This document shows positions 610-37,398 of a DNA stretch of 57,355 nucleotides, piece by piece. A model generated the notes under the pieces. It saw only the letters and a program-made list of their open reading frames with translations. It searched no databases and was not told the DNA's origin. The stretch comes from Bacteroidota bacterium (lineage in GTDB: Bacteria; Bacteroidota; Bacteroidia; Palsa-965). The position numbers were made by a program, and so were the translations under genes. The stretch spans positions 1 to 57,355 of the forward strand of contig PLYR01000107.1 in assembly GCA_003153435.1 (NCBI GenBank). The letters are read 5' to 3'. The stretch's first letter is position 1. Every line of letters begins with the position of its first letter.

Positions 610-2310
610 TCAACTACCTACTTTGGCTTTAATTTTGGGAATGCTGAGCCCATGGTGTGGAATCTGAAGGGGGGTAGCATTTATTAATCGCTGCATTTCA
701 AAAACACTCAACTCTCTTTGAGTAATCGTTAGTGGCTTGTTACTCGCCACCATGGCGCAATATTGGGTGACTACAAACCCCGCTAGTTCAACTTTAATCT
801 CAATAATATGCTGCCATTCACTGGGAATCCAGTGAACGATTATGTCTCTCACCTTTCGATCTACAAAAGCTTTTTTTTCTTCATCGGTCCAGGAGCTAAT
901 CGTTTTAAGAATTTTTGAATCTGCAAGGGATTCTTCCAATAAATCTACTTTTTTGCTAAACTCATTGATCTCATCAGTCGTCTGTTTCTGTAAACTCACC
1001 AACTGAATTCCTTCCTCTTTAAGAATAGCACTCCTTTTTTCAAATTGTTCCATTGTAATTTTATCATTAACATACAGAGTAATCAGATTTTCATTCCTCC
1101 CTTCAGTTGCTGCTATTTGGTTTGCTATGCTGGACTTCTTTTTTGCAAGTTCCTTTAATTTTTCAGGTGCATTAATTGTTTTCAGTTCATCCTTTATTGT
1201 CGTTTGCTGAATCTTGTTACTGACAATTAAGTTCCATATTTTATCATTAAAGCTATCGAGATTTACAGACCTTGCCCCACATGGGACTTGCCTTTTTGAA
1301 CTACACATATAAACCCTTTCATCAATTTTTATTTTTCCGTACCAGTTTGCTCCACATTTTGCACAACGGATTTTTCCCTTAAAAAGGTAAAAATGAGTAG
1401 CGTGATTGCCGGAATTGTTTTTGTTATGCTTTAAATTAGCTTGGATCTTATCCCATGTTTCCTTGTCGATTATTGCCGGAACAGGAATAATTTCCTTGCT
1501 GAAAATTCGGTGACCATAGTACAAGGGATTAGTCAACATACAATAGACTGTTCCCGCTCGCCACACAAAATCTTCGTTATTTACCACCCTTATACTGCCC
1601 GTATGTTTATTCTTAACTTTTGTACCATTGAGTAAAACTTTCTTGCACCGTGTTTCAATATCAAGTTTATTTAATTTCAACGCGATAGTATTCGTTCCAT
1701 GCCCGGAGAGGGACAACTCAACTATTTTCCGGTATACTTCGGCTTCTTCAGGATCAATTTCTATAAATCGATCGCTATTCCTACGGAAACCATAAGGCAG
1801 AATTACTCCCGGCCACCTGCCCATTTTCGCACCTTCGATTACAGCTCTTTTGCTTCGCACAACGAACATTTCACGCTCCTGTCTTGCGATTAATGCAGTT
1901 AAGTCGGCAACGAATGATTGCTGTGGGTCTTGTAAATTGATAGTTTGGTTTATCGTGTGAAGGTTGATGTTGTTTTTAAGAAGAATTTGTTTGATGAAAA
2001 AGGTAGCAACGGGCGATCGAGAAAGGCGATCTTGTTCCGTAACAAAGATGTCCGATACTTTCCCTTCGGTACAAAAATCAAGAAGTGCTTTAAGGACGGG
2101 TCTGTTTTTAAATTCAAGATCGTCGCTCGCTCCTGATTTCCCCTTTTCAACGTGTATTCTGTAGTTTAGCCCTAAACTTTTCGCTTTTAATTTACCTGCA
2201 TTCTCCTGCGCCAAAAGCGAATGCCCCTTCTCTACCTGTATATCGGTAGAAACGCGACAGTACACATCTAAAGTATTTTGGCTGCTTTTGTTCACGGTAT
2301 TAACACACAA
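610..2310 (-). CDS. Large serine recombinase (integrase)
   Basis: This 566-residue site-specific recombinase very probably inserted the element into comM. The N-terminal resolvase-type catalytic domain (about residues 13-155) has the nucleophile in YCRVS (Ser21) and the conserved EQDRLSR segment near residue 92. A Recombinase domain follows (about 165-290). Next is a zinc beta-ribbon with four cysteines (Cys316, Cys319, Cys336, Cys344), and then a long coiled-coil-rich segment from about 380 to 460, which in this family controls integration versus excision. The gene reads toward the left end and is the terminal gene of the element. It lies 48 bases downstream of the polymerase-like gene and may share its transcript. 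Length and domain order fit the large serine integrase family; no recombination directionality factor could be identified. Confidence 0.95.
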   Translation of the reverse strand: MCVNTVNKSSQNTLDVYCRVSTDIQVEKGHSLLAQENAGKLKAKSLGLNYRIHVEKGKSGASDDLEFKNRPVLKALLDFCTEGKVSDIFVTEQDRLSRSPVATFFIKQILLKNNINLHTINQTINLQDPQQSFVADLTALIARQEREMFVVRSKRAVIEGAKMGRWPGVILPYGFRRNSDRFIEIDPEEAEVYRKIVELSLSGHGTNTIALKLNKLDIETRCKKVLLNGTKVKNKHTGSIRVVNNEDFVWRAGTVYCMLTNPLYYGHRIFSKEIIPVPAIIDKETWDKIQANLKHNKNNSGNHATHFYLFKGKIRCAKCGANWYGKIKIDERVYMCSSKRQVPCGARSVNLDSFNDKIWNLIVSNKIQQTTIKDELKTINAPEKLKELAKKKSSIANQIAATEGRNENLITLYVNDKITMEQFEKRSAILKEEGIQLVSLQKQTTDEINEFSKKVDLLEESLADSKILKTISSWTDEEKKAFVDRKVRDIIVHWIPSEWQHIIEIKVELAGFVVTQYCAMVASNKPLTITQRELSVFEMQRLINATPLQIPHHGLSIPKIKAKVGS

Positions 2311-2358: not shown

Positions 2359-3795
2359 TCACTTAAGGGTCGGAGGATGAACCCCTAAAGCATGGAATTC
2401 ATTTCTGATCGCTTCTTCGACAGCCTTTAGATGATGAGGTGAAACAATGACTGAATCGTGGACAGTCAGGAACGGTCCTGCACCGATTTCAATGAGCTTA
2501 GGAACGATCCTGCCAAGAAATATTCTAGATTCCATTCGTTGCATCATACATGCCAGGCTCTTGTGATAACCGCTTGGTCCTTCGAACTTCCCTTTTTTAT
2601 TCAAAAAAATGGTTTCAATAAAAGGCAGTTCCTTTTCGGAGAGAGCCTTAATCTTTCTAAAAGCAGCATTTACAGATGGGAACTCTGTGTTGAAAATTTC
2701 ACGAATGAGACGTTTAGTTACGGCTCCCAGTTTTTCCCATTTCTTCGGAGCACGATTTGGAGAAAACATCAGGTAAAATATTTCTTCTTTTGCAGTATCT
2801 CTGTCTATTCCTTCCCGAAGTGACATCCAATACTCATAGAGTTTTCCCGTAGCACAGAGTTCAGCGTATTTTTCAAAGTCTGATTTCCCTTTCAAGTTCT
2901 GTAGCGCTGGGATGCAGGCTTTAAATTCTGGAAGTATAAGGTCAATTAGAGTTGGATTGATTGCGATTGAGCTAAAATACGGCTGACTATTGGCAATGTC
3001 CGTCACGCCGGGAGCATCCTTAGATCCCTCAATCCGAATGAACGGCCTTAATTGCTTCCACAGGTTGCTGAATGGTGTATGAAGGCGCTCACCGTATGCA
3101 TCGACCTTTCCTTCTCTAGCATAGCCATCATTGCACATGTGCATTTGCAGTAACATATCCGGATAGTTTCGTTCCTCGCCTGATTTGGTATCCCTGACAA
3201 TGATTTTCCCTTCTGAGACTTTCTGTAAGAAAGATTGGGCATTCCGGAGGTCAAATTTGACTTTTGTCATCATCTTCATTAGCTCTCTGTGAGTAGAATT
3301 TAATTCTGGGTTCCGCTCCTCTCGCCTGCGTTTTTGAGAAAGTTTCAACTTATGTAGACTTTTAAGTGTACAATGATCTGTTATAATTTCCTTGCGAAAG
3401 TGGCATACGCTATTGTTTTCATGGAGCAATGTTGAAGGAATCCGGTATTGCTGGCTCTGCTCTCCAGGAGTATACTTTAACCCACCTGTTAAGTGATCTC
3501 GGCGTAATTCCAATAATCCTTTTAGCTCAAAAAAATCTACAAATCTTTTATACTCAAAGGTTACAGATTTCTGAAGCAGATCGGAGTGCAAAGTGACCCA
3601 ACCAGTTCTATGCATAACAGATTGTTTTATTTCCGTATTCGACATTTGATTCAAGCGTGACAAATACATCTGGTGATAGAATGCAATAATCCTACCTGGA
3701 TTCAATCCGCTGATTTTTGCCAATTCTTTGATGGGAGGCAGACCCCGTGGTACATAACCTTTTATGGGTTTATACCTTATTATTTTTTTTGGCAT
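2359..3795 (-). CDS. Stand-alone polymerase palm protein resembling family A DNA polymerase / T7 RNA polymerase
   Basis: A 478-residue protein without a recognisable exonuclease or primase domain. The C-terminal half shows the ordered motifs of the family A/T7-type palm and fingers. Motif A-like DIANSQPYF has Asp266. Motif B-like R332-x3-K336-x7-F344 compares with the family pattern R-x3-K-x7-Y(G). A Q-helix-like stretch spans about 414-434, and motif C-like HDS has His446-Asp447. The N-terminal 180 residues look helical and basic, with a winged-helix-like start. It reads in the same direction as the integrase, directly upstream of it, with a stand-alone hybrid-binding domain next upstream. 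The motif spacing argues for a real nucleotidyltransferase palm; whether it makes DNA or RNA cannot be told. The assignment is inference from motifs only. Confidence 0.6.
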   Translation of the reverse strand: MPKKIIRYKPIKGYVPRGLPPIKELAKISGLNPGRIIAFYHQMYLSRLNQMSNTEIKQSVMHRTGWVTLHSDLLQKSVTFEYKRFVDFFELKGLLELRRDHLTGGLKYTPGEQSQQYRIPSTLLHENNSVCHFRKEIITDHCTLKSLHKLKLSQKRRREERNPELNSTHRELMKMMTKVKFDLRNAQSFLQKVSEGKIIVRDTKSGEERNYPDMLLQMHMCNDGYAREGKVDAYGERLHTPFSNLWKQLRPFIRIEGSKDAPGVTDIANSQPYFSSIAINPTLIDLILPEFKACIPALQNLKGKSDFEKYAELCATGKLYEYWMSLREGIDRDTAKEEIFYLMFSPNRAPKKWEKLGAVTKRLIREIFNTEFPSVNAAFRKIKALSEKELPFIETIFLNKKGKFEGPSGYHKSLACMMQRMESRIFLGRIVPKLIEIGAGPFLTVHDSVIVSPHHLKAVEEAIRNEFHALGVHPPTLK

Positions 3796-3842: not shown

Positions 3843-4088
3843 CTATACATTTTCTTTTCTGTCTTTGTTTTGATCTAGCCATTTTCTCAGAGCTATTTTC
3901 GCTTCCATATAGGAATTGTATTTCTGGTGTAGATTCCCCAAAAACTTATCAGTTTGTTTTTTTACATCAGCCCAATTATCGTAGATACCCGGATTTCGGC
4001 CTATAAAAACGACGTAGTATTTCTTTGCGCCATTACCTTTTCCTTTGAAATACTGACTATGGAATTCATCTGGGAATAGTTTTTGCAT
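3843..4088 (-). CDS. Stand-alone RNase H1 N-terminal-type (viroplasmin / hybrid-binding) domain protein
   Basis: An 81-residue protein that is almost entirely one caulimovirus-viroplasmin / RNase HI N-terminal domain. It shows the YYVVFIGRNPGIY strand-turn, the W-x-x-x-K-x-Q segment and a closing K-YNSYMEAKIAL helix. In RNase H1 this small domain binds RNA:DNA hybrids or double-stranded RNA. There is no catalytic RNase H domain (no DEDD residues) in this frame or nearby. It lies 47 bases upstream of the polymerase-like gene, so the two may be co-transcribed and may act together on a hybrid substrate. Confidence 0.75.
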   Translation of the reverse strand: MQKLFPDEFHSQYFKGKGNGAKKYYVVFIGRNPGIYDNWADVKKQTDKFLGNLHQKYNSYMEAKIALRKWLDQNKDRKENV

Positions 4089-4142: not shown

Positions 4143-5369
4143 TTATTTGGAGAAATATTCGTCGTTCATTATGATTGGTATTGCTTTAAACAAGGCAATT
4201 ACATTGTCTTCGTCCGGGCTGTTAAACTGTTTTCCTATTTTGCCAATTGGGTTTGCCACCATACCCCCGTCAATCAGTACGTTCAGCTCTGAATTCCAAA
4301 CACCACCATAAGTTGAAATAATACACTTTCCCAAAAATATTCCCAAAGCATTCCATTCACCTTTTTCATTCTCAATGGGTTGAGTTCTGATGTGATTAAT
4401 ATACTTTGACAACCATATTACTCCCTCTTCATTAAATGCAAGAACCTTTCTAGCATATTGGGATAATCTATATCGGACATTTTCTGCGAGAAAGTCCATC
4501 TGATGATTCACGGCCTCTAATCTCTCGAGAGGGGTTAAACTTTCCTTTTTATGAGCATCTGCTGAATTGAGTTCTTTGAAATACTTGCTTATATTCTCTA
4601 ACGGAGCACTTGCATACTGGCTAAAAACTAAATTGGCTGGATTCAGGAGATAGCCATCTTTTATCTGAATATTTTTGATTAGGTATTCCCCTTCGACCCA
4701 TAAACCCCCGACTTTTCTGATAATGCACTCCCCCAAAAACGCTGATAGATATTCCTTTGTAAGTCCCGCGCCCTCCATTTTGAAAAACATATTGATGAAT
4801 TGTTCTGCCAGCAAGACTCCTTCCTCATCAAAGGCAACTTCCTTGCCCGCATAGGCTGAAACATACATTCTGCCGAGCTCTGCACAATATTGCATGTATT
4901 CATTTACATCGTAACTTGTGCTATTTAATTTGGCTGTGAGACTCGCAGCTACGCTTTTGTATGTACCATTCCGTTGGAGATTGTTCATAAACTGGAAGTA
5001 TATCACCTTTTTATAAAGAGAGAAATCGGGCCCTTCTTCCAACTGCAAGGTCATATAGTAAAGTGGAAAGAAGTAAGCTCCAGATGGGAATAGAATCACT
5101 AAATCGTCTTCATTAAAGACCAACTCGCCTCCAAGAATTTTGTGTACTGCCAATGTCACAAAAGCATTCAGTGATTGAATCTCGCCTTCCTTTGTTTCGT
5201 CATTTTCTGCCTTTATTGTTTCGAGATAATCAGTAATGCTTAATATTCCGGCCATTCCAAGTACCATCTCTTTTCCAAGAATTTGCTTCGCTTTGCCTGA
5301 ATCTGTAACTAACTGTTCTTTTTCTTTTTCAGAAAGTGGGCGGAATTGAAAGTTTTGAGTCGTATCCAT
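4143..5369 (-). CDS. Hypothetical protein with an internal duplication
   Basis: No family assigned. This 408-residue soluble protein contains two copies of a roughly 75-residue unit: one around residues 180-230 and a second around 310-370. Both run AF(D/N)EEGV, then a helix, then FLG(E/K)CII, a K/Y-GG(L/V)W turn and a variable end. The repeated LG-C-II-GG-W pattern is reminiscent of small immunity-type domains, but I cannot confirm that. There is no signal peptide or membrane segment. It is the middle gene of the leftward block that ends with the integrase, between an unknown gene and the hybrid-binding domain gene. Confidence 0.75.
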   Translation of the reverse strand: MDTTQNFQFRPLSEKEKEQLVTDSGKAKQILGKEMVLGMAGILSITDYLETIKAENDETKEGEIQSLNAFVTLAVHKILGGELVFNEDDLVILFPSGAYFFPLYYMTLQLEEGPDFSLYKKVIYFQFMNNLQRNGTYKSVAASLTAKLNSTSYDVNEYMQYCAELGRMYVSAYAGKEVAFDEEGVLLAEQFINMFFKMEGAGLTKEYLSAFLGECIIRKVGGLWVEGEYLIKNIQIKDGYLLNPANLVFSQYASAPLENISKYFKELNSADAHKKESLTPLERLEAVNHQMDFLAENVRYRLSQYARKVLAFNEEGVIWLSKYINHIRTQPIENEKGEWNALGIFLGKCIISTYGGVWNSELNVLIDGGMVANPIGKIGKQFNSPDEDNVIALFKAIPIIMNDEYFSK

Positions 5370-5451
5370 TTTATTTGAAGATTTAGGGTTATTTTAAAAT
5401 TGTTTTCTTTATTGCTACACAGTTACACCCATGATTGACGGACAGACGGGA

Positions 5452-6306
5452 TCAATAGTGAATATATTTGCAGGATTTTCTCCTGTTCCCATGATAGGAA
5501 TTAATCCAAACTGTGCTGATCGGATTGGGATCTTTTCCTATTTCACCTGTTATTTCGACTTTCATTATTCTTTCGCTAACAGATTCCACATAATCATCTC
5601 TGTCTATAGAATGCACTCCTTTTTTTGTATACCACTGATCTGAAAATAGGTCTTTAGACTGGTGGATGAAGTCTATGTCCCCTTCCCCTTCTGAAAAGGC
5701 TGGTGTTTTTTCTACAACTTCACCTTCGGAGTTGATTTCAATTTGCTTTTCATAGTGATGATCAAAATAATGTACCCTCTCTGTATATTCTGGAATGTGA
5801 TCTCCCCGGTCGTGGCTGTAATGTGTTTTGAATACACGACAGAGAAGCTTGCCTTTTCTGAAAATGGATGTCGATATTCCTTGAGGGTCTGAGGAATTGA
5901 TGATTAGATTCGCACCTTCATGATCATAATATGTCTCCTCCGTTTTTTGCCAGTGCAAGTTGCAGCAACACACGATCTCTTTATTTTGGATTATGAATGT
6001 CCCATCTGAATCGGTTCCACTCCCAGGTTTTGCTGGAAAGAATCCGACACGGAGCCGTTTTGTTGGGTCAAATATTCCGAGAAATCCGTCGGCTGATGTA
6101 ACCAAAGAACCATCATCAAATCCTATTCTAGTTAAGTCTATTGTGTTGAACTCTTTGCTAGCGAATTGAACCAATTCTCGATTACCGGGAGAGCCTAATA
6201 TCGATTTGTACTTCGTTAAGTGGCTCTGGATATTTTTTAATTCGATTTCCGGATCAATGGATTTATTATCATTTTTCCTTTTGATTGCTTTTTTCTTTGC
6301 TTTCAT
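5452..6306 (-). CDS. Hypothetical protein
   Basis: No family recognised. The 284-residue product starts with a strongly basic N-terminus (KAKKKAIKRK) and is otherwise rich in beta-type segments and in Asp, His and Tyr. A Cys-Cys-Cys run lies near residue 111. No membrane segment is present. Six bases separate it from the C5 methyltransferase stop upstream, so it is very probably translated from the ParB-methyltransferase transcript. Confidence 0.7.
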   Translation of the reverse strand: MKAKKKAIKRKNDNKSIDPEIELKNIQSHLTKYKSILGSPGNRELVQFASKEFNTIDLTRIGFDDGSLVTSADGFLGIFDPTKRLRVGFFPAKPGSGTDSDGTFIIQNKEIVCCCNLHWQKTEETYYDHEGANLIINSSDPQGISTSIFRKGKLLCRVFKTHYSHDRGDHIPEYTERVHYFDHHYEKQIEINSEGEVVEKTPAFSEGEGDIDFIHQSKDLFSDQWYTKKGVHSIDRDDYVESVSERIMKVEITGEIGKDPNPISTVWINSYHGNRRKSCKYIHY

Positions 6307-6312
6307 TTGAGG

Positions 6313-7233
6313 TTATTTTAAAATTGTTTGCTTAATTGTTTCTGCTATTTTTCGCATGACCGGTGGGCATACAGCATTCCCAAGGATGCGCATATTCACT
6401 GATCGGGACTTTGATACCATGCGAAAGTCTGCTGGAAAACCCATCAATAGTTTTGCATGATCCACGCTGAGAAGTTCCCATTTCCCATCAATGAAAAGTT
6501 CTGTCTGATTGCTTGCAGTGATGGTACACATGTAATGGTTGGAAGACTTTGCTTTTGCCTTAAATTGTCCTGGACGAAAAAATTTAGCTTCTGGAATGGC
6601 ATGCTTTAGACGGAGGAGCCTTGCGCCTTCAATATTTGGTTCTGGAAATTGTATTTCCACGCCCGGATTCACGTCCCGCCGTTTTCCAATCAAAAATAGC
6701 CTTCTTCGATCCTGATAGACCCCATAGTAGGGCGCTGTAACCAGTTTAAATTTGAAGTCGTAATTGCCTAATTCGTTCAGCTTTTTTATCATTTCATTGT
6801 AGTAGGGTTTCTTGGCACCTGTAACAACGCCATCGACATTTTCACCGGTAAAGGATCTTGGTTGCAGGTCTTTTATTTTATCAACAAAATGGTTGAAATT
6901 TCTGTTGATGTCTTCCGGCGGTTTTTTACAGAATTTGGCATTAGCCTGAGAATAGAGTTGGCATGGCCACGAACAGTGAAGCAAATCCAATTGACCTTTT
7001 TCCAGCCCAGTCAATCGAAAAATTTCCTCGGCAGAAACCTGCTCCATTCTTTTTTCGAGAACTAATGTTTGCGGAAAATTTGCGATATGACACTCCACCG
7101 CCTTTTGAGCGAAGTCAATTCCAAGAACCCCATCCAAGCCAGCCTGGGAAATCCCTAGGCTGGCTCCGCCACCTCCACAACATAAATCGATAAACGTGAG
7201 TTGTGGTCGTTTTAGCACTTTGTTCGGTTTCAT
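6313..7233 (-). CDS. DNA C5-cytosine methyltransferase
   Basis: Transfers a methyl group from S-adenosylmethionine to cytosine C5 in DNA. Motif I is FIDLCCGGGGASLG (about 14-27). The catalytic motif IV is WPCQ with Cys91, motif VI is GENVDG, motif VIII is QDRRRLFLIG, and motif X is LGNAVCPPV near the C-terminus. At 306 residues it is compact, with a short target-recognition region, so specificity cannot be read. The ATG overlaps the TGA of the ParB-like gene (ATGA at 7230-7233), indicating translational coupling. No restriction endonuclease lies beside it, so it is probably an orphan methylase, for regulation or anti-restriction of the element. Confidence 0.93.
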   Translation of the reverse strand: MKPNKVLKRPQLTFIDLCCGGGGASLGISQAGLDGVLGIDFAQKAVECHIANFPQTLVLEKRMEQVSAEEIFRLTGLEKGQLDLLHCSWPCQLYSQANAKFCKKPPEDINRNFNHFVDKIKDLQPRSFTGENVDGVVTGAKKPYYNEMIKKLNELGNYDFKFKLVTAPYYGVYQDRRRLFLIGKRRDVNPGVEIQFPEPNIEGARLLRLKHAIPEAKFFRPGQFKAKAKSSNHYMCTITASNQTELFIDGKWELLSVDHAKLLMGFPADFRMVSKSRSVNMRILGNAVCPPVMRKIAETIKQTILK

Positions 7234-8507
7234 ATTTTGTCCTCCATTTTAACGATGCTCACCATCTTATTATAGCATTCACATTCTGGGTGCTTGCACC
7301 GGTAGAAGACGGATTTATTCTGTGGTAATGCAACAATCTCTGTGGTAGAGTTGTCCACTGCCTCCTGACCGTCATCAGCCTTAACCGCTTGTAGATAATC
7401 GTTAGCCGCATTTTCGGTATGCTCATCCTCCTCTTCGTCATCCTCATCCTCATCTGTATCTTCTTTTTGATCCTCCAGTTCCTCCTCTTTTTTATAATCG
7501 TTCGCCTCAGCTTCGATATTCTGCTCGTCATCACCCTCATCTTCATCTATATCTTCCTTTTGATCCTCCCGTTCCTCCTCTTTCGCCGATAAATCATTTT
7601 CTTCCATTCCCTCATGGCTTTCTTCATCCTCATTCTGAGAATTTTCATTGGATATTTCCTTTTCTGGGTCTTGACCAGGGTCAGTTGAAATATGTGTTGA
7701 GGTCTGAAGGGGCGTGTTATTGAGTTCAACTTCCTTTTTGGGTGTATAAAAGGATTCTGTTGAGAGCCCTCGAATGCAAGAAAAAAAGGCTTCTTCAATA
7801 CTGAACTCGCCCGAGGTGATTCGCTGATGGTATTTTGGCTGCATTTCATCGATCAACCGATTCCATACAACAGTAATATCCTCCTTTTCCAATGCATATT
7901 TCTTGATAAACTTGATCAGTTTGCAAGCACCATCAACACTCATATTTCCCTTCTCAATATCATCGAACAATTCGGGCCTGTTCCTGAGCACATTGAGATA
8001 CTTGTTAATTGTTGCAGGGGATTTTTTAAATCTAACTGCCAGCCGTTCATCTGTTGTTCCTTTTTCCGTTTCTCCTAATCGCATCTTATCAGTGCGAGTT
8101 CCTGGCTTTCGCCCCCACATCTGTTTTGTAAATTCGATTATTCGAGCCGTTTGGTATTCTGTCAGTTTGGTCGCCTCGTTTCCTGCAATAATGGCAGCTT
8201 TGATTTTATCCTCGGAAGAGTATTCTTCTACGAGCACTGGAATTTGTTCAATTCCAAGTATTTTGAAAGCAGCAATTCTTGTATTTCCGGAAATGCCCAG
8301 CCACTTTCCAATATTGATATAATCTGGTGTTACACTTGGCAAGTGTTTGAGTCCGTTTTCTGCAATGGACAGTGCAATTGCTTGTGCGTCTTCCTTAGTT
8401 CTTTCAAAGAAGGAGAAGTGGTGCGGCGAAACATCATTTACGTTTACTGTAATAATCTTCAGTTCTTTGTTTATCGAACCTACTGCGTTCAGGGTTTCTT
8501 CGGCCAT
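7230..8507 (-). CDS. ParB-like nuclease-domain protein with acidic C-terminal tail
   Basis: The 425-residue protein has an N-terminal ParB/Srx-type domain (about 15-110) including GISGNTRIAAFKILG, the equivalent of the ParB GERR/nucleotide-binding loop. A helical DNA-binding core follows, with the KSPATINKYLNVLR helix-turn-helix at about 160-180. Residues about 275-390 are an extended acidic, Glu/Asp/Lys-rich tail with low-complexity repeats. A C-terminal patch with Cys-x3-Cys-x-Cys and YNKMV may be a small metal site. There is no ParA neighbour, so it is more likely a ParB-like regulator or CTPase/nuclease of the element than a segregation protein. It is the first gene of the leftward ParB-methylase transcript. 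Confidence 0.88.
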   Translation of the reverse strand: MAEETLNAVGSINKELKIITVNVNDVSPHHFSFFERTKEDAQAIALSIAENGLKHLPSVTPDYINIGKWLGISGNTRIAAFKILGIEQIPVLVEEYSSEDKIKAAIIAGNEATKLTEYQTARIIEFTKQMWGRKPGTRTDKMRLGETEKGTTDERLAVRFKKSPATINKYLNVLRNRPELFDDIEKGNMSVDGACKLIKFIKKYALEKEDITVVWNRLIDEMQPKYHQRITSGEFSIEEAFFSCIRGLSTESFYTPKKEVELNNTPLQTSTHISTDPGQDPEKEISNENSQNEDEESHEGMEENDLSAKEEEREDQKEDIDEDEGDDEQNIEAEANDYKKEEELEDQKEDTDEDEDDEEEDEHTENAANDYLQAVKADDGQEAVDNSTTEIVALPQNKSVFYRCKHPECECYNKMVSIVKMEDKI

Positions 8508-15090: not shown

Positions 15091-17397
15091 ATGAAAAAAC
15101 AGAAACTACCGATTCGGACTTCGGCCCAAAGAAAGGAGGACATATCGAGAAGAGCAATAGAAGCTTTAATCGACCCGTGGGTAGTATGTTCTTGGGAGCA
15201 GAGAGATTATGGTATTGACGCAACTGTGGAAATTCACAAATTAATTGGAGATACTCAGAACTCACATCCAACATCCAAAAGATTCTTGGTTCAATTAAAA
15301 GCAACGAATACCATTGATATATCGAAAAGTAAATTTCTTTATCCCGTGGATGTCGAAAAAATAAATTATTGGTATAACTCGAATTTGCCCGTCATGCTTG
15401 CCGTGTACCATATTTCGAGCCAAAAACTGTTTTTTAGATGGATGAACAATAACAACGAATTGATTAATTACTTTGATAAGAAGTCCCCTGGTTGGGCACT
15501 TAAGGCGAGCATTGGTGTTCCTGTTGAGACATCTTTAGTATTTAACAGTAATAGCTCTGAAGGAATTGAGGAATTTGTATTTAATTGGAAGGTGCCCATA
15601 AAGAAAATAATTATACCCGGAAATTATTTTGCTTTAAAAACAGATACGGTTAGCAAGATTAATGACTTAGAAGAGATCGCATCTCGGTATAAATTCCCGT
15701 TTATTGCTGAATCATTAAAGAATCTAAAAGACCTATCCGAACAGGCCATTTATAGAATTGCGATTACAGGTCCGTCAAGAGTGGGTAAGAGCACCCTGAT
15801 CAATTCTCTTCTTGAATATGATATTTCACCCGTTGATATGTTTCAAACAACTGGGGTGCCAATCAATTTTCTACCGGGAAGAGAAGAACGAGTTCATATA
15901 TTTAAAAATGATGGCTCTACAATAACTGATAAACTGTCAGAGAAGAATATTCGAAGATATGCTTCACAGCAGGAAAATCGAGACAATACAAAGGATGTTA
16001 AACTTGTTTCGGTATTTCTTCACAATAAAACATTGGAGCGCGGTGTTGCATTATACGATATTCCGGGATTAGATGACCCTAATGATGACATCAGATCTCT
16101 TACATGGATGACAGCGATGCAATCAAATGCGGTTGTTTATATGATCGACGCTTCTCCGTTTAGAAACCATGGTTTTATTTTTAGAAGTGATTTTAGATCG
16201 GCATTGAGTGATCTCGGGAGTAAATTAGATAAAGTGTTTTTAGTATTAAACAAAGTAGATGATTTGCACCCAGGTCAATTAGCATTGTTGAAAACTAGAA
16301 TTGAAGAAGAATTAAAGAGATTCGGTTTGTTTACAAAAATTAACCAAAGAATATTTTACTTAAGCGCAAAAAAAAAGAAGGGAGGAGGCAAAGAAGGAGC
16401 CGACTGTGTTCTTGATTTGGAGAAGGAAGTTTGGGAATATTTGTTGAAAGAAAACAAAGTGGGTCTTGTTAAGATGAATGAAGTTATTATTGAAACAGGG
16501 AATATAGTAAACAACTTTAAATCCTTAATAAATGTTCGCCTAATTGACAACGACCGAAGAAATGAAATTGAGGGTCTAGTTATAAAAATTGGAGAAAAGA
16601 TCCCGCAATTTGGTAAAGAGATCGGCGGTGAGAAAAAAAACATTGTCCGGACTGTTCATGCCCTAGTGGAGTCCCGAAAAAATAATATTTATGATCAATT
16701 ATTAAGTTACTTAGAGAGCATTCATGAGGATAAAGATCTTCCTACAAGCACAGAAGTAAAAAAATTGTTGCGTTACAATGTAAATCAAGCGATTAATAGT
16801 ACAAATATTGATTATTTAGCGCAATTGACTAACCTGAAGCTGCGAATAGATTCTTGGTTACTCGAGAATATTAGGGCTGTTCAAGATGCAATTTCCAATA
16901 ACCATTCTTCAAGATCTGTTGATTTATCAAATCTTGAAAGATTAGAGTTCAAAAATTTAGGGGATGCATCAAGCTCAGTTGGTATGGGAATATTCACGGG
17001 AATTCTAGGGCTTTTAATAGCTCCTCCATTAGCGTTGCTTACTGGTATAGGAGGGTTTATTATGAGTTGGTTTCTTACAAAAAAGGAGCGTCGGGATAGG
17101 GCTATAAATAAAATCATGGTTAGTTGCAAATCGGAGTGTAATGAAACCTTTGATTTGATTAAAACTCAGTATGCTGGGCTGCTGGATGACAATTTCACGC
17201 AAATGCTTGAATATGCGAATTCATACTTGAGCAAATATTTTTTAGACATGAATGAACAATTGAACAAACTTGATACGGCTTTGCCAAAGGAAGAACTGAA
17301 AACATTGAGAAAGTCCTTTGCTGACATTGACAAGCTTTCATTTGAGCTTAAAGCTGTGAAGGATAGGATTGAGAATTCCTATTTTAGCCTAAGCTAG
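15091..17397 (+). CDS. DUF4365 nuclease-like domain fused to a dynamin-like GTPase
   Basis: A 768-residue two-part protein. Residues about 10-165 match the DUF4365 pattern: SRRAIEALI helix, RDYGIDATVEI with Asp43, then FLVQLKAT with Gln68-Leu-Lys70. This is a PD-(D/E)XK-like core with Q-x-K. Residues about 215-450 are a dynamin-family GTPase with G1 GPSRVGKST (227-235), G3 DIPG (323-326) and G4 NKVD (387-390). A long helical stalk follows, with a hydrophobic Gly/Leu-rich hairpin at about 630-665 that could insert in the membrane, and a helical tail. It should be a membrane-remodelling GTPase that carries a nuclease-like sensor or effector. Its stop overlaps tail-to-tail (CTAG) with the DUF4209-type gene. 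Domain fusion is seen in the sequence; a defence role is inferred. Confidence 0.85.
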   Translation: MKKQKLPIRTSAQRKEDISRRAIEALIDPWVVCSWEQRDYGIDATVEIHKLIGDTQNSHPTSKRFLVQLKATNTIDISKSKFLYPVDVEKINYWYNSNLPVMLAVYHISSQKLFFRWMNNNNELINYFDKKSPGWALKASIGVPVETSLVFNSNSSEGIEEFVFNWKVPIKKIIIPGNYFALKTDTVSKINDLEEIASRYKFPFIAESLKNLKDLSEQAIYRIAITGPSRVGKSTLINSLLEYDISPVDMFQTTGVPINFLPGREERVHIFKNDGSTITDKLSEKNIRRYASQQENRDNTKDVKLVSVFLHNKTLERGVALYDIPGLDDPNDDIRSLTWMTAMQSNAVVYMIDASPFRNHGFIFRSDFRSALSDLGSKLDKVFLVLNKVDDLHPGQLALLKTRIEEELKRFGLFTKINQRIFYLSAKKKKGGGKEGADCVLDLEKEVWEYLLKENKVGLVKMNEVIIETGNIVNNFKSLINVRLIDNDRRNEIEGLVIKIGEKIPQFGKEIGGEKKNIVRTVHALVESRKNNIYDQLLSYLESIHEDKDLPTSTEVKKLLRYNVNQAINSTNIDYLAQLTNLKLRIDSWLLENIRAVQDAISNNHSSRSVDLSNLERLEFKNLGDASSSVGMGIFTGILGLLIAPPLALLTGIGGFIMSWFLTKKERRDRAINKIMVSCKSECNETFDLIKTQYAGLLDDNFTQMLEYANSYLSKYFLDMNEQLNKLDTALPKEELKTLRKSFADIDKLSFELKAVKDRIENSYFSLS

Positions 17398-19271
17398 GCA
17401 TGTTTATTTGTGAGCCGATATTCGCTTAACCTTAGAATTATTGATAGCAGGGTAAGCGGAATCGTTGTGGAATACTCGTCGGCATCCATGAGTCCATGTG
17501 CGATATGATTTCTTATATTTAATCCGCCCTTCTCATTTATTAGGTGCTTAATAATAAGAACATCATCAACCAATAAAATATTCTCCAAGCTCTCTAAAAG
17601 TTTGCCTAAAGGCTTTTCATCTGTCAAAATTACACCGCGTTGCTCATCATATCTGAATGTTGGAATTCCAACCGTTTTGCACATATATCTTAAAATCATT
17701 TCTACTTTGGTGGCCATACTATCAGAGCAAAGAATGAAATTTGGCTTATAACTGCTGTCTTTAGCCCATTGCCCCAGCTCGAAAAATAAATTATCCAAGC
17801 CCGGTAAAACAGCATTTAAAAGCACGGTCGAATGGGGTTCCCCGTTTCTTAGCCATTCCAGAGGTTCATTGAGCCAGCTATTTTCTAATTTACTCTTAAT
17901 GGTGGAATAGGATATTGTGCCTTTGTGTAATGAATGTATTAAGATTTGGAAAGTGATTTGGAGCCCAATTTGATGTGACGTTCCCAAAATGCGGGATAAA
18001 TGAAAAAATTCTCGTTCTTCTTCAGTCGAGTAAATTCTTATCGTGTTTCCGTATTTGTCCATACTCTGCAGTCTTGCAAAGTTCAATAAGGAATTACTGT
18101 TGGCTGCTTTTTGGGCCTCTGCAATTAATGCAGTTCCACTTTTAATGATATTATAACCACATAGAAAGCGAATAATTAGTTCAGAAGAGCCTGAGTCAAT
18201 GACCTGTTTGATCAGATCGGTTATTGCTCTGGATTCATTTTCATCAGTTTGAACACTAATAGTGGCCGGTTTAAATTTAGCTTTGTCTACTTCGAATTTT
18301 TTACTGACCCTTTCTATCCCAACGCTATTTTTCGCTGAATTGTAGTATTTAAGCGCTTCTTCATAATCTTTTATTGATGAGAAGGGGTTTTCTCCTTGAG
18401 AAAGTAGATCTCCTTGCCCTTCATAAAATTCGGCCAACTTAAGAGAGTATTTCGATTTGTCATTCGGTTTATACGAGGCACAAAAAAATAGAGCTTTTTC
18501 TGAAGTAAGTATTGCTGACCTCATGTCTTGGGTCAAAAAAAAGGCAATCGCTTCATCAAACTTTTTAAGAATATTTGTTGAGTTTATGGATTGTTGCACT
18601 TGTTTTTTGCAATCAACGAAATTCAGAGCAGTGAACTGGCATAGAAAAATGAATGACTCATTGTTTAAAGGCCAATCTATGAACCAAGATTCGATTAATT
18701 TAACAAAGGAATCTAGCTCCGATTGCATAGAATCGCCGGACCGAACCATAATTAAAAAAACGTCCAGTAGTCTTTGGTGAAATATATGTGAGTGAGTAGC
18801 CCATGTAGAATTGGGGTCTAGCAGCTTTGCTTTATAACGCTTTATAAGATTAATCAGGTGAGCACAAAGTTCAAGCCTTTTATTATTATGCTGTAAACGA
18901 TTGCTGAGAAATAGCAAAAGGCCATACTCAACCTTTAGAAAGATGTTTAGTGATTCATTGTATCTTTTCTCAAAATAGTCATATTCAATTTTTCCATAGA
19001 GACTAAAATCCGGCTGCATTATTCGGATCGTCCTTCCGTCTTCCAGAATTCTCTTCTGTTCAAATAATGGAATTAATCCATCATTAATTGATTTTGTAAT
19101 ATTATGAATATCGCTTTCTAGTTGAAGAAATTTGGGGCCCTGTATGTCCTGATGAACCACCATTTTGGATGCATAAGCATCCAATAAGACTCTAATTTCG
19201 TTTTGTGAATTTTCGGTATCGAAATCTGACCCATCAATTTCATCAATATAGGATTTGAGTAGCTCTGACAT
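17394..19271 (-). CDS. DUF4209-type protein with C-terminal HEPN-like motif
   Basis: A 625-residue, mostly helical protein. The C-terminal part has GLNIRNHIAHGLMD (about Arg587 to His592), the signature of DUF4209 and equivalent to the HEPN Arg-x4-His motif. The N-terminal 340 residues contain TPR-like helical pairs (for example KDYEEALKYYNSAK). It converges with the dynamin-fusion gene, and the two stop codons overlap by four bases, so antisense effects are possible. It could be a predicted RNase effector or a sensor. Alternative: a non-catalytic scaffold. Confidence 0.8.
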   Translation of the reverse strand: MSELLKSYIDEIDGSDFDTENSQNEIRVLLDAYASKMVVHQDIQGPKFLQLESDIHNITKSINDGLIPLFEQKRILEDGRTIRIMQPDFSLYGKIEYDYFEKRYNESLNIFLKVEYGLLLFLSNRLQHNNKRLELCAHLINLIKRYKAKLLDPNSTWATHSHIFHQRLLDVFLIMVRSGDSMQSELDSFVKLIESWFIDWPLNNESFIFLCQFTALNFVDCKKQVQQSINSTNILKKFDEAIAFFLTQDMRSAILTSEKALFFCASYKPNDKSKYSLKLAEFYEGQGDLLSQGENPFSSIKDYEEALKYYNSAKNSVGIERVSKKFEVDKAKFKPATISVQTDENESRAITDLIKQVIDSGSSELIIRFLCGYNIIKSGTALIAEAQKAANSNSLLNFARLQSMDKYGNTIRIYSTEEEREFFHLSRILGTSHQIGLQITFQILIHSLHKGTISYSTIKSKLENSWLNEPLEWLRNGEPHSTVLLNAVLPGLDNLFFELGQWAKDSSYKPNFILCSDSMATKVEMILRYMCKTVGIPTFRYDEQRGVILTDEKPLGKLLESLENILLVDDVLIIKHLINEKGGLNIRNHIAHGLMDADEYSTTIPLTLLSIILRLSEYRLTNKHA

Positions 19272-19409: not shown

Positions 19410-20609
19410 TTAAACACTTTTTTTCTTTTCCTTGAAAGTGTCGGTAGTCCAAATTCCCAAGGCCTTTCTTTTCATGGCGATTTTTGGAGGGAATAGAATG
19501 TTATAGTTCTCTCTTATCGTTTTTAAGTATTCCCTCTCTTCATTGATCTCTTTGAATCGATCAATTATTATTTTGCAAGAATCAAGTTCAATGCCAATCC
19601 ACTTCCTTTTTTTCATTTCTGAAACCACGTAAGTTGTTCCTGAACCTCCAAATGGGTCCAAGATTGTATCGCCTTCTTCGGAAGACATTTCAATAATTCT
19701 ATCCATCAACTTTACCGAAAGCTCATTTGCGCCTTGTCTCTTTTTGTATTTAGTGTGTCTGACAGGAGGGATGTCGTACCAAACATCAGTCAAATTAATT
19801 CCTTTTGGATTCATTTTGTCCTTATACCCTCCGTAATCTTTGGTTTCATTCGAACATTTTCTGCAAATCTCCATAGGAAGTCTGTCAGGATGAAAAGTTG
19901 CCGGTTTGTCACCTTTGCAATAGTATAAAAGAGAATAATGAGATGGGTATAATTTGTTTTGAATAGGCAAGGAAAACTTAATGTCTGCCGCGATTAAATC
20001 CCTGAATTTTAATCTGTGATTGAGGAACTCTCCGAGGTATAGGTTCCATTCCGGTAGGTTCCACACGAAAATGCTACCACCATATTTTAAGAGCCTAACG
20101 CATTCTGTGAGCCATTCCTCGCACCAAAGTATGTATTCAGAGTCACTCAAATTATCATCCATACCAGATGGATATATTTTATTCAAATTAAATGGAGGAT
20201 CAGCGAATATTAAATCAATAGATTCATCCTTAAGTGTTTTCATTACCTCGATGCAATCACCTTGAAATAATCTTCCCGAATTCGTTCTAAAAACAGGTTC
20301 TATTGCTTTCGGCTTTTTTAGTGTAGGTGTTTTAAGATTTTTGGAAATCTTTTTGGCCTCTTTTTGTAATAAGGACTTTAATGAATTGTCGTAAATACCC
20401 ATTGAGAGCATTAATTCAAATTTAGAAATTGATAGGGCCTTTTCAATTTTCACTAAATCTTCTGGGGATGGGAGAATGTTATTTGTATGGTAATAAAGAA
20501 GACGTTTAGAGTCAATTTGCAGAATTACGGAGAGCTTTTTAATAGACCCGTTGCCATCATACTTGAAATTTAATGCGTGAAAGAATTTACTAGAATGTGC
20601 TGTGCCCAT
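19410..20609 (-). CDS. DNA methyltransferase, beta class (N6-adenine or N4-cytosine), with N-terminal HTH
   Basis: A 399-residue modification enzyme. The catalytic motif IV, ADPPFN (DPPF at 137-140), precedes the S-adenosylmethionine motif I, LDPFGGSGTT (about 317-326), which is the beta-class order. The first 75 residues resemble an XRE-type helix-turn-helix, so it may repress its own promoter, as many type II methylases do. A cluster of three cysteines lies near 249-252. It is divergent from the BamHI/BglII-like endonuclease gene across 108 bases; the two form a type II restriction-modification system. Confidence 0.9.
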   Translation of the reverse strand: MGTAHSSKFFHALNFKYDGNGSIKKLSVILQIDSKRLLYYHTNNILPSPEDLVKIEKALSISKFELMLSMGIYDNSLKSLLQKEAKKISKNLKTPTLKKPKAIEPVFRTNSGRLFQGDCIEVMKTLKDESIDLIFADPPFNLNKIYPSGMDDNLSDSEYILWCEEWLTECVRLLKYGGSIFVWNLPEWNLYLGEFLNHRLKFRDLIAADIKFSLPIQNKLYPSHYSLLYYCKGDKPATFHPDRLPMEICRKCSNETKDYGGYKDKMNPKGINLTDVWYDIPPVRHTKYKKRQGANELSVKLMDRIIEMSSEEGDTILDPFGGSGTTYVVSEMKKRKWIGIELDSCKIIIDRFKEINEEREYLKTIRENYNILFPPKIAMKRKALGIWTTDTFKEKKKSV

Positions 20610-20717
20610 TTGGAATATTGTTGATTACCAGTATCTTTGAACGGTTATTGAAGTGAGGTAAATATACTTAAAATCCGCTTAAATAGTTTCAAAATAATTC
20701 CCTGCTAATTCACCGGT

Positions 20718-21314
20718 ATGAAAATTGTTCACGAAAACTTTCTTTTGAAAAGAGGAGATTTCCACGAAAGTGAGATTTTTAAAACAATTCTTAGTGAAAT
20801 CAGAACAGCTATTAGCCATGTGTCTTGGCCTGAAAACGAGCAAACTTTTTCCATTCGGCCAGAAAGGATGGGCAATGGAGTTAAGCCTATTAAAAATAAA
20901 TTCATAAAGCATTTGATAAATCACGGTTGGAAGGATGAGATACGACTTTCCTTGGTGAAGGAAGTCGGTTCTGGTCCAATTGATGCTATTAAAAATACAG
21001 ATGCAGGAATTTTCGCTGTAGAATGGGAGACTGGCAATATCAGCTCTTCCCATAGAGCATTGAACAAAATTGCAATGGGTATTTTGCAAGATAATATTAT
21101 TGGTGGGATACTTATACTTCCCGTTTGGAATTTAGCTCAGTATTTAACTGATAGGATTGGAAATTATGAAGAATTAAAGCCATATTTTCCGCTTTATGAT
21201 TTTTTAAAATCAGAGAAAGGATTGCTACTTGTTATTTCTGTTGATTATGACGACACCTCCTCATCAGTCCCCTTGATTCCGAAAGGGAAGGACGGCAATT
21301 CTAAGGGGAAATAA
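20718..21314 (+). CDS. Type II restriction endonuclease, BamHI/BglII-like
   Basis: The 198-residue product is the right size for this family. The core runs GPIDAI with Asp89, then FAVEWETGNISSSHRALNK with Glu102 and Glu104. The E-x-E active site, in place of E-x-K, followed by a GNISSSHR loop is characteristic of BamHI/BglII-type enzymes. It cleaves unmodified DNA. The divergent methylase at 19410-20609 is the natural partner. The expected recognition site is GATC-centred by family analogy only; it cannot be read from the sequence. Confidence 0.82.
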   Translation: MKIVHENFLLKRGDFHESEIFKTILSEIRTAISHVSWPENEQTFSIRPERMGNGVKPIKNKFIKHLINHGWKDEIRLSLVKEVGSGPIDAIKNTDAGIFAVEWETGNISSSHRALNKIAMGILQDNIIGGILILPVWNLAQYLTDRIGNYEELKPYFPLYDFLKSEKGLLLVISVDYDDTSSSVPLIPKGKDGNSKGK

Positions 21315-25115: not shown

Positions 25116-25808
25116 TCATTTTATTTTAGAGAGGAACGGAGCATATTCATCATCAACCCGGCAATCATAAACCCGTAGCGGACCAAATGAATTTTTGAGT
25201 GCAAACAGTTTGGCAAGATCACCAGGATCATTTCCCGAAACATCGGTAGTGATGCTATAAACAGAAGCCTGGTATATTCCAAGCACGACATCAGGGAAGA
25301 TTTCAAGGAAAGGATTCTTTAGATCTTGCAATTCCGGATAACGGCCCCCACCTCGCTCATCAACAGAGGAATAGAGATGAGCTGAGATAATAAGAGTGAC
25401 GTCATGCTCTTTACACATCCAATGGACAGTCTGTAGCACTTCAAGAGCCTGTTTCTTCCAATCCTTTCCTGAGGAAAGACTAACCAGACGTTCAATGCCG
25501 TCTATAATGATGTAATCAGGTTGTTTCCTTTCTATTGTAAGAGCGAGGCCGTGCTTAAGAGTTTCCATATCCCATAGTTGTTGATATTCAAAATGCACCA
25601 TAGGGTTTTCAGAAAAGAAAGAGGAATCTTCGATTTGACAAGGAAAGAAGGCAAGACACTTATATGGGTTTTGCTGGATTATTTCTTTTAAATAAGAGGT
25701 AACGCCCATGCCGGGTCTGCCGGAGATAGCGCAAAAGGATGCCTTTGGTAAGGAAATAGCCGTAAAAGGAAGTGTAATATCAGAAGGAGTATGTGCTTTG
25801 GTTTTCAT
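25116..25808 (-). CDS. DnaB-derived RecA-fold ATPase with a degenerate Walker A
   Basis: A 230-residue stand-alone RecA-like domain. The P-loop reads SGRPGMGVTS, in which Val36 replaces the invariant lysine of the DnaB GRPGMGKT/S motif. Walker B is DYIIIDGIERL with Asp103. The ISAHLYSSVDERGGGRYPELQDLK stretch is the counterpart of the DnaB LSQLNR...RP.LSDL segment. The N-terminal DnaB domain is absent. It probably binds nucleotide poorly or not at all, and may be a scaffold or regulator of replication or of the neighbouring deacetylase. It is second in the leftward operon starting with the deacetylase. Confidence 0.75.
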   Translation of the reverse strand: MKTKAHTPSDITLPFTAISLPKASFCAISGRPGMGVTSYLKEIIQQNPYKCLAFFPCQIEDSSFFSENPMVHFEYQQLWDMETLKHGLALTIERKQPDYIIIDGIERLVSLSSGKDWKKQALEVLQTVHWMCKEHDVTLIISAHLYSSVDERGGGRYPELQDLKNPFLEIFPDVVLGIYQASVYSITTDVSGNDPGDLAKLFALKNSFGPLRVYDCRVDDEYAPFLSKIK

Positions 25809-29635: not shown

Positions 29636-30049
29636 ATGCTCATAGATTTATCTAAATACGGAAGTGCCTTCATCAAAGGGCCGGAAGATGTTCGAAAAAT
29701 GATCAATAAGATTCTTGCCGGGAAGCACCTGTTTGACAGAGAAAAAGAGTTTCTCTTTGCAATTGCATTGAATACTGCAGGACGGGTTAAATACATAGAC
29801 CTCGTTTCCATGGGAAGTGTTCGGGGGACGGTCGCAGAACCGAGGGAGATTTTCCGATTTGCAATACTTCACGGAGCAGTAAACCTTATTATAGCACATA
29901 ATCATCCTTCCGGCAACTGCAAGCCCTCTGAGGCAGATAAAAAACTTACGGCAAAATTATTTCAGGCCGGCGAAATCCTCGAAATAAAAGTGCTGGATCA
30001 TATAATAGTTACAGAGGACGCTTTCTATTCTTTCACTGAAAATGAGTGA
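29636..30049 (+). CDS. RadC-like JAB-domain protein
   Basis: The 137-residue protein consists of the RadC JAB/MPN+ fold only, without the helix-hairpin-helix of chromosomal RadC. The signature is AHNHPSGNCKPSEAD, with the zinc-binding His, Ser and Asp, preceded by a conserved glutamate segment. Short RadC proteins are common on plasmids, phages and integrative elements; their enzymatic role is unknown. Placement near the right end of the element fits that pattern. Confidence 0.93.
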   Translation: MLIDLSKYGSAFIKGPEDVRKMINKILAGKHLFDREKEFLFAIALNTAGRVKYIDLVSMGSVRGTVAEPREIFRFAILHGAVNLIIAHNHPSGNCKPSEADKKLTAKLFQAGEILEIKVLDHIIVTEDAFYSFTENE

Positions 30050-33288: not shown

Positions 33289-33320
33289 GGCACCCCCGTA
33301 ATAAGATCACAGATGTAGCT
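33289..33320. other. attR of the element
   Basis: The element arm GGCACCCCCGTAATAAGATC (33289-33308) is followed by ACA, the shared GATG core (33312-33315) and then host comM codons GTA GCT CTC. The arm mirrors the left arm with 16/20 matches. The GAT codon has the same frame as GAT 463-465, so excision would restore comM exactly. Confidence 0.8.
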
Positions 33321-34013
33321 CTCGTAGGTGGAGGAGGAGTACCCCAGCCGGGCGAAATATCCCTGGCTCATAATGGGGTTTTGTTTCTGGATGAGTTGCC
33401 TGAATTTAAGAGAACTGTCCTTGAAGTCATGCGACAGCCGCTGGAGGAAAGAGTCATACATATTTCCAGGGCACGTTTTTCGGTGGAATATCCGGCCAGT
33501 TTTATGCTGGTAGCATCGATGAATCCATGTCCCTGCGGATTTTATAATCACCCTGAAAAGAATTGTGTTTGTGGTCCAGGCATTGTCCAAAAATACCTCA
33601 GTCGTATTTCAGGTCCATTGCTCGATCGTATTGATATTCATGTGGAAGTGACTCCGGTTTCTTTTCGTGAGCTTTCAGGAGAAAATGCTGCAGAAGGAAG
33701 TGAAGCCGTAAGGGCAAGGGTGATTAAAGCAAGGGAAGTTCAGGATAAACGCTATTCAAAATCAGATGGAGTGCACTGTAATGCCCAGATTGCTACCCGT
33801 GAACTGCAAGCCGTGTGCAAACTAAATGAGGAAGGGCAGCAACTCATGAAAACTTCTATGGAGCGTCTGGGTCTTTCTGCCAGAGCCTATGACAGAATCC
33901 TGAAAGTAGCGAGAACAATTGCCGACCTTGCAGGGGCCGAACGCATTGAGAATGATCATCTGGGAGAAGCTATTCAATACAGGAGCTTGGATAGGGAAGG
34001 CTGGGCTGGGTGA
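33312..34013 (+). pseudogene. comM: ComM/YifB, 3' part, downstream of the element
   Basis: Codes for the remainder of the Mg-chelatase AAA domain and the C-terminal domain. It shows VALVGGGGVPQPGEISLAHNG, the Walker B-type FLDELPEF, the SMNPCPCG signature with the C-x-C cluster, RISGPLLDRID (arginine finger region) and the C-terminal Mg_chelatase_C helices (LGLSARAYDRILKVARTIADLAG). The open frame extends left to 33225 into element DNA, so a spurious start there could express a headless fragment. Joined to the 5' part at GATG, it gives an intact family sequence. The 132 bases at its 3' end recur at 37267-37398. Confidence 0.95.
33882..34013 (+). repeat. Direct repeat: comM 3' end, copy 1
   Basis: The last 43 codons plus stop of comM. 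It matches 37267-37398 without gaps at 121 of 132 positions; most differences are silent (two amino-acid changes). A block of 49 bases (33922-33970) is identical. Confidence 0.9.
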
Positions 34014-36679: not shown

Positions 36680-37266
36680 TTAGTTTTTTTTAAATGTATC
36701 TTTCCAAGCTGAAAAATCTCTGATGTCTTGTTCAATTTCTGTTTTAGTTGGTAATTGTGGGATTGTTGAAGTTCCGCCATCGTGTTCTGTTATGGAATAC
36801 TTTCCAAATAAAGCTAAAAGAAAATCAACGTCCGTTTGTTCCGTGATAATATAACTTGATAAGTTACCTTTTTTAAGGTGAATGTTTTTAGAAAATCGTT
36901 CGTAAGTTTAGCCTGATAAAACTTCTTCAACAGAACGCTCAAGCAAAATTCTAAATCTTTCCTTGCAGAATCAAGCTTTGTTTCTCTTCCATGTGCATCA
37001 TTTAATGAAAGAGCATCATGTTCATTCAAGATTCTTTTGATAGAGTCAACTCTTTCTTGAGCGTTTTTAGCTAAGTATGGAATTTCGTCTGAAACAATTC
37101 CGCTGATTCCAATGTAATTGTTAATTCCTAAAATTGAACAATCCGTTGTTATGATTGCTTTATGTGTGTCAATAAGCAAACGCAAAAATGATAATTCATG
37201 GGTAAATACAATTATTTGTCTATTTTGTGGAAGTTGAACAATTTTGTTTGCAATTAAGTCTCTACT
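36680..37266 (-). pseudogene. 3' fragment of an AAA/SMC-like ATPase gene, 5'-truncated at the comM repeat and frameshifted
   Basis: Leftward frame beginning exactly where the second comM tail ends ([13 protein letters not shown], then RQIIVFTHELSFL, the post-Walker B strand and switch histidine). It continues with GIVSDEIPYLAKN and helices. At 36869-36874 the coding strand reads A-AAA-AAG. The first frame ends at 36814, but a -1 shift there continues with SSYIITEQ, VDFLLALFGKYS, EHDGG and TEIEQDIRDFSAW to a TAA at 36680-36682. The combined product fits the C-terminus of defence-associated AAA ATPases. The N-terminal two thirds, including Walker A, are missing, so it is not functional. Confidence 0.7.
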
Positions 37267-37398
37267 AGAGCCTATGACCGAGTACTTAAAGTAGCCAGAA
37301 CGATTACCGACCTTGCAGGGGCCGAACGCATTGAGAATGATCATCTGGGAGAAGCCATTCAATACAGAAGTTTGGATCGGGAAGGCTGGGCTGGGTGA
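37267..37398 (+). repeat. Direct repeat: comM 3' end, copy 2
   Basis: An orphan copy of the last 43 comM codons and stop ([17 protein letters not shown] and onward), 121/132 identical to 33882-34013. It has no upstream comM sequence and abuts the truncated AAA ATPase gene. Mostly silent differences show that it diverged under selection, i.e. in another genome, before arriving here. Confidence 0.9.

Follow-up and report, generated by a model that had tools for sequence, protein, structure and literature searches.

Putative TV-Pol-like family A polymerase in an element integrated in comM of a Bacteroidota bacterium

The stretch of Bacteroidota DNA analysed here (57,355 nucleotides, hereafter the window) carries, inside an integrated element, a gene for a predicted minimal family A polymerase of the kind described as TV-Pols, or transposon-virus polymerases (Iyer, Abhiman and Aravind 2008; PMC2579912). 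We consider it rather probable that this enzyme synthesises DNA on the excised element and may prime this synthesis as well. The first-pass annotation had listed the replication of an excised form among the possible roles, and the analysis supports it as the leading idea. The gene (2359–3795, minus strand) has exactly the coordinates first assigned to it; it starts with ATG and encodes 478 amino acids in an intact frame with zero internal stops. The ORF, the conserved residues, an AlphaFold2 model and Foldseek matches support the assignment and the following predicted parts: a winged helix-turn-helix domain (residues ~12–128), a thumb or helical region (~140–222), a hairpin arginine (Arg237), the palm with Asp266 and His446-Asp447, and the fingers with Arg332 and Lys336.

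The protein has no named match in Pfam, PHROGs, NCBIfam, PADLOC or a PDB sequence search, and scanning viral and genome contigs with the single protein revealed no close relative. The only library match within its family is an unnamed PHROG, which is found in five relatives. The DNA_pol_A model (PF00476) matches neither the window polymerase nor nine relatives; the host's own full-length PolA, encoded elsewhere, matches it at 551 bits. HMMER comparisons of the family with the host PolA and with the phage Ma-LMM01 gave no significant match. The family is a divergent representative of a known kind, and it has no name in Pfam, NCBIfam or PADLOC. The gene is present in a single copy in the 4.0-Mb host genome. 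As the host has a full-length PolA of its own, the element polymerase is presumably dispensable for the cell.

Homologues of the polymerase share 20–27% identity; for those in the 21-sequence alignment, the range is 20–25%. The alignment of 10 sequences was too diverse for a pattern search, and relatives were found with smaller alignments. A profile search detected them in 16 of 395 sampled Bacteroidota genomes (~4%); others occur on Hymenobacter plasmids, in huge phages and viral contigs, in 15 more Bacteroidota loci and in one Planctomycete. In the phylogenetic tree, the window polymerase groups with a viral contig (L052) and a clade from Hymenobacter plasmids and chromosome; the group of eight has support of 97/91, and the branches are long. 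One of the relatives (L037, 9323–11383) has approximately 200 extra C-terminal residues that look GIY-YIG nuclease-like by eye.

Residues D266, N269-S270-Q271-P272, Y320, K336, Q419, E422, H446 and D447 are invariant in the 21-sequence alignment, and R237, R332, F372, P373, K383 and T444 are conserved in at least 90% of it; R332 and R237 are fully invariant in the 10-sequence set. The resulting family patterns are D-I-x-N-S-Q-P for motif A, R-D-x-x-K for the fingers and T-x-H-D for motif C. The residues first assigned to motif A (Asp266), the fingers (Arg332 and Lys336) and motif C (His446-Asp447) are found where they had been placed and are conserved in the homologues. The fingers signature R-x3-K-x7-F proposed at the same time stands for R332 and K336, but position 344 is aromatic (F or Y) and not strictly Phe. 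The fuller pattern, R332-x3-K336-x3-F340-x3-F344, has the same spacing as R-x3-K-x3-F-x3-Y in the O-helix of Pol I. An HHalign comparison of 40 family members with 30 Bacteroidota PolA proteins puts R332, K336, F340 and F344 on the O-helix and HD446–447 on motif C; the alignment is marginal (probability 7.5%, P 0.0047) and was used for the register alone. A search of the PDB with the 21-sequence profile at E-values up to 10 matched only six Pol theta chains, weakly and at motif C. A chance origin of the motifs is excluded by their conservation across homologues this divergent and by the fold search described below.

The steric-gate position is Glu in Pol I and Gly in the T7 RNA polymerase. In motif A of the window polymerase, Gln stands at Asp+5, which is the steric-gate position if the register, taken from sequence motifs alone, holds. 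The choice between dNTPs and NTPs therefore cannot be presumed.

The AlphaFold2 model, computed from the 21-sequence alignment, has a pLDDT of 79 and a pTM of 0.80. The confidence is mostly above 90 from residue ~250 onward, a region that covers the palm and fingers. The model has strands at 263–267 and 442–445 and a helix at 332–344; R237 sits in a short strand region immediately before motif A, and helices at 141–161, 167–176, 183–194 and 211–222 lie ahead of the palm. In the Foldseek search against the PDB, all 50 of the 50 matches listed are family A or T7-type polymerases. M. smegmatis Pol I is the best match (E 2e-4 at a probability of 1.0); next come the Aquifex Pol I, the apicoplast polymerase of Plasmodium and Taq. 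Against known polymerases, the global TM-scores stay low (0.2–0.4), since the domain arrangement and the N-terminus differ and the core alone is common. The best full-length structural matches are two phage proteins from BFVD, A0A8D9FR19 and A0A516L5C2, of ~400 amino acids and 18% identity (TM 0.61–0.64 by query, 0.71–0.74 by target). The former (TM 0.61/0.71) comes from an uncultured marine phage and is annotated as 'Putative DNA polymerase I'. As judged from the predicted fold, these matches and Pfam, the ORF encodes a stand-alone family A polymerase palm without exonuclease, and the first-pass annotation was right in this respect. The fold and the motif residues had been named beforehand as the points that could refute the assignment; the predicted fold is that of a family A polymerase, and the motif residues are conserved. 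The conserved catalytic residues, the confident model of the palm and fingers and the family A structural matches favour the synthesis of element DNA.

A single-subunit RNA polymerase that transcribes the element genes would likewise contain a family A palm, and mitochondrial RNA polymerases are among the lower-ranked structural matches. However, these are outranked by Pol I and Pol theta among the PDB matches listed, one of the viral proteins matched over the full length is annotated as a DNA polymerase I, and the N-terminal and promoter-recognition parts of T7 RNA polymerase need more than the 478 amino acids available. We therefore regard a transcriptional role as highly improbable, and the original description of the protein as 'T7 type' was dropped, as single-subunit RNA polymerases rank lower than Pol I and Pol theta.

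In place of an exonuclease domain, for which Pfam gave no match, the N-terminus of the polymerase (~120 residues) is predicted with moderate confidence to form a winged helix. Residues 12–128 folded alone give a helix-strand-helix-helix-strands arrangement with a pLDDT of 83. The best structural matches of this domain are mostly winged-helix proteins, for example MarR-type regulators, TubR and the N-domains of plasmid initiator Rep proteins (4pt7, 4pql, 5kbj), at E-values of 0.1–0.5 and probabilities of up to 0.5. The first reading of the sequence had described accessory domains as absent, which is correct for exonucleases but missed this predicted domain.

The element (463–33315) lies inside comM (yifB), a competence gene of the Mg-chelatase-like type that is split in the window and whole in relatives. 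Comparison with the intact comM of relatives defines two junctions on the plus strand with the same GATG core: the left one (463–466) at the end of the 5' part of comM, and the right one (33312–33315), from which the 3' part of comM runs to 34013. The element ends around GATG are palindromic at 21 of 31 positions, a level matched by 6 of 200,000 random pairs, and by sequence appear to be attP-like sites of a serine integrase. The split comM, the shared GATG and the palindromic attP arms together give an element length of 32,849 bp. The integrase itself (610–2310, minus strand; 566 amino acids from a TTG start) is a large serine recombinase with the Resolvase, Recombinase and Zn ribbon domains (Pfam E 7e-24, 2.5e-16 and 1e-6), and the polymerase gene lies directly behind it, as originally described. 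This enzyme thus apparently integrated the element in comM. The adjoining integrase, the att dyad and the intact comM in relatives also favour DNA synthesis on the element. A second copy of the comM 3' end (37261–37398 versus 33876–34013; 138 bp, 91% identical) is located 3.4 kb downstream and suggests that this site underwent another insertion or exchange.

The proximity of the two genes could also mean that the polymerase fills gaps or repairs ends made by integration, a function that had been considered from the start. Serine recombinases leave no gaps, as they break and rejoin all four strands, and relatives of the polymerase are found in phages and plasmids. Repair synthesis at integration was therefore rejected, and we consider it extremely improbable. 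Between the polymerase and integrase genes there is a terminator-like hairpin, although such sites are equally common in shuffled sequences; transcription of the two genes as one unit is at most tentative.

On the other side, 47 bp upstream of the polymerase gene and on the same strand, is a gene (3843–4088, minus strand) for an 81-amino acid protein that consists of a solo RNase H1 N-terminal hybrid-binding domain (Cauli_VI, PF01693, E 7e-15) without the RNase H catalytic domain. A hybrid-binding domain next to the polymerase had been noted before and is confirmed here; it is the only Cauli_VI domain in the whole host genome. It is followed upstream by genes for a 408-amino acid protein (4143–5369, minus strand; no Pfam family over the cut-off) and a 284-amino acid protein (5452–6306, minus strand; no Pfam match), neither of which has a plasmid match. 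The 284-amino acid protein matches a PHROG SSB family at E 0.13, which is at chance level, and either of the two could possibly hold an OB fold. Further upstream are genes for a C5-cytosine DNA methyltransferase (6313–7233, minus strand; Pfam E 1e-40) and, overlapping the start of the methyltransferase gene, a weakly recognised ParB-like protein of 425 amino acids (7230–8507, minus strand; ParB_N E 0.01, HTH_ParB E 0.027). A 34-bp repeat with 88% identity (5381–5414 and 6305–6338) is found just upstream of the genes for the 408- and 284-amino acid proteins, and possibly represents a shared promoter or operator.

The position of the hybrid-binding gene and the uniqueness of its domain in the genome might point to a polymerase that copies RNA or acts on RNA:DNA hybrids, in an RT-like or R-loop-primed manner, with the hybrid-binding protein as a targeting subunit. 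However, reverse-transcriptase motifs are absent, the architecture is that of family A, and no Rfam RNA was found in the window; no tRNA was found either. In addition, a search around 40 sampled relatives of the polymerase found no hybrid-binding domain, so that the RNA-templated system suggested in the first-pass annotation gains little from this neighbour, and we judge such an activity very unlikely. The pairing of the hybrid-binding domain with the polymerase is so far particular to the window element.

Related polymerases have other neighbours. In Weeksellaceae, the polymerase gene is situated between genes for a tyrosine integrase and an AAA_24/Sak4-like ATPase, and on a Hymenobacter plasmid it is close to the gene for a Rep_3 initiator. 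In a 595-kb phage (L009), the related polymerase gene (5446–6609) and a second family A polymerase gene directly behind it (6606–7892) have a 4-bp overlap; the product of the second gene matches PF00476. The occurrence of relatives beside tyrosine integrases and AAA_24/Sak4-like ATPases, beside a Rep_3 initiator and in huge phages again favours a role in the synthesis of element DNA.

The remaining cargo of the element includes a BamHI-family restriction endonuclease (PF02923, E 2e-59) with an adjoining N6/N4 methyltransferase (19410–21314), a kinase-phosphatase pair, and, near the right end, an AAA ATPase-Toprim protein (30925–33078) that resembles the fused AriAB of PARIS (PADLOC E 4e-11). 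A gene for a dynamin-like GTPase with DUF4365 (15091–17397) overlaps a DUF4209 gene on the opposite strand (17394–19271). The DUF4209 protein is similar to PDC-S39 and is a candidate defence gene; a relative of it is located near the related polymerase on a Hymenobacter plasmid (L007). A RadC-like JAB protein is encoded at 29636–30049, with relatives near related polymerases in three other loci. A conserved neighbour of 137 amino acids was considered as an SSB and rejected, as the protein is RadC.

From these data we propose the following model. The serine integrase would excise the element at comM, and the polymerase would then synthesise DNA on the excised circle. The winged helix may position the polymerase on element DNA, and the core of thumb, palm and fingers would extend, and perhaps also make, primers from dNTPs, with priming analogous to that of CcPol-MP. 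In this way, the circle would not be wholly host-dependent for its copy number or survival. The hybrid-binding protein might serve the polymerase by recognising an RNA primer or R-loop, but the two are seen together in this element alone. The closest precedent that favours DNA synthesis on the element is biochemical: CcPol of SCCmec acts with MP as a DNA primase-polymerase, likewise in an element with a serine recombinase (PMC7581432), and it is assigned to the TV-Pol group, for which replication of such elements was proposed (PMC2579912).

Several observations argue against a role in element replication. No D5/COG3378 helicase was detected among the element proteins scanned, including the polymerase neighbours, and no SSB family exceeded the threshold in Pfam or PHROGs for an OB-fold gene next to the polymerase. 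A single helicase-like gene was recognised in the element; it encodes a DnaB_C-like RecA core of 230 amino acids (25116–25808, minus strand; Pfam E 1.5e-8) and lies 21 kb from the polymerase. Iterons or an origin were not found, and the intergenic hairpin and the low global TM-scores weigh on the same side. A new replicase type, in which a winged-helix family A polymerase and a solo hybrid-binding domain start at an R-loop or RNA primer and not with a D5 helicase or OB-fold partner, seems unlikely.

DNA synthesis on the excised element remains our preferred reading. The protein also has a wider interest. It has been proposed that polymerases of the TV-Pol kind stand close to a minimal ancestor of Pol I and the T7-like RNA polymerases, and the present family is spread over Bacteroidota elements, plasmids and huge phages. 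The window polymerase is a soluble-sized test case for priming by element-borne polymerases, and also for the question of whether integrative elements with serine integrases replicate once excised.

The window polymerase shares with Pol I the predicted fold of the polymerase core and the positions of the O-helix and motif C. In contrast to Pol I, it has neither a 3'-5' nor a 5'-3' exonuclease, is missed by PF00476, and has D-I-x-N-S-Q-P in motif A where Pol I has D-Y-S-Q-I-E. It differs from T7-like RNA polymerases in that, among the structural matches listed, its model is closer to Pol I and Pol theta than to mitochondrial RNA polymerases.

CcPol-MP and the PolA-SSB primases of SCC and other Bacillota elements likewise comprise a family A polymerase lacking exonucleases at least in part, in a large-serine-recombinase island with restriction-modification genes (PMC7581432, PMC10061031). 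By this analogy, the window protein could be a primase or primase-polymerase that supplies host polymerases with DNA primers on the element, while the winged helix or a neighbour (the hybrid-binding, 408- or 284-amino acid protein) provides the MP-like binding of single strands or hybrids. The window protein has the minimal architecture and the element type of CcPol and TV-Pols, priming was predicted for TV-Pols (PMC2579912) and demonstrated for CcPol-MP (PMC7581432), and a small protein with a nucleic-acid-binding domain is encoded directly upstream of the polymerase. However, CcPol alone has no priming ability (PMC7581432), and no OB-fold partner was identified with Pfam or PHROGs. In the CcPol systems, an OB-fold SSB gene stands between the polymerase and helicase genes, neither of which partners was recognised beside the window polymerase. 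Moreover, CcPol is close in sequence to the housekeeping Pol I, and relatives of it that have OB-fold partners occur widely among Bacillota (PMC10061031), whereas the window family is missed by Pol I models. We consider a function confined to priming possible but doubtful.

Most of the TV-Pol features compared are found in the window polymerase. TV-Pols have 400–600 amino acids, a minimal thumb, an arginine in a beta-hairpin, a palm with two Asp residues, RxxxK fingers and no nuclease; they are found in elements with serine recombinases of the gamma-delta-resolvase type or with tyrosine recombinases, among restriction-modification genes and in phages, in Bacteroidetes and other phyla, and both priming and polymerisation were proposed for those in resolvase-bearing elements (PMC2579912). 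CcPol was the only member with biochemistry as reported in 2020 (PMC7581432). The window polymerase has the invariant D266 and D447, on or next to the modelled strands of motifs A and C; the RxxxK fingers with Asp, as R332-D333-x-x-K336; R237 before the palm as the putative hairpin Arg; and no nuclease domain in Pfam. A serine recombinase is encoded beside it, and tyrosine integrases beside its relatives. Unlike a subset of TV-Pols, it has no linked D5 helicase; its N-terminal domain is predicted to be winged-helix-like, whereas the extra N-terminal domain in a subset of TV-Pols was predicted to be all-helical (PMC2579912); and its neighbour is a solo hybrid-binding domain. Direct homology to a named TV-Pol is weakly supported: the best ORF of the Microcystis phage Ma-LMM01 is MAP_030, a candidate TV-Pol, which aligns only with the N-domain (HHalign P 0.013). 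The match in features suggests that the window protein is a divergent TV-Pol-like polymerase.
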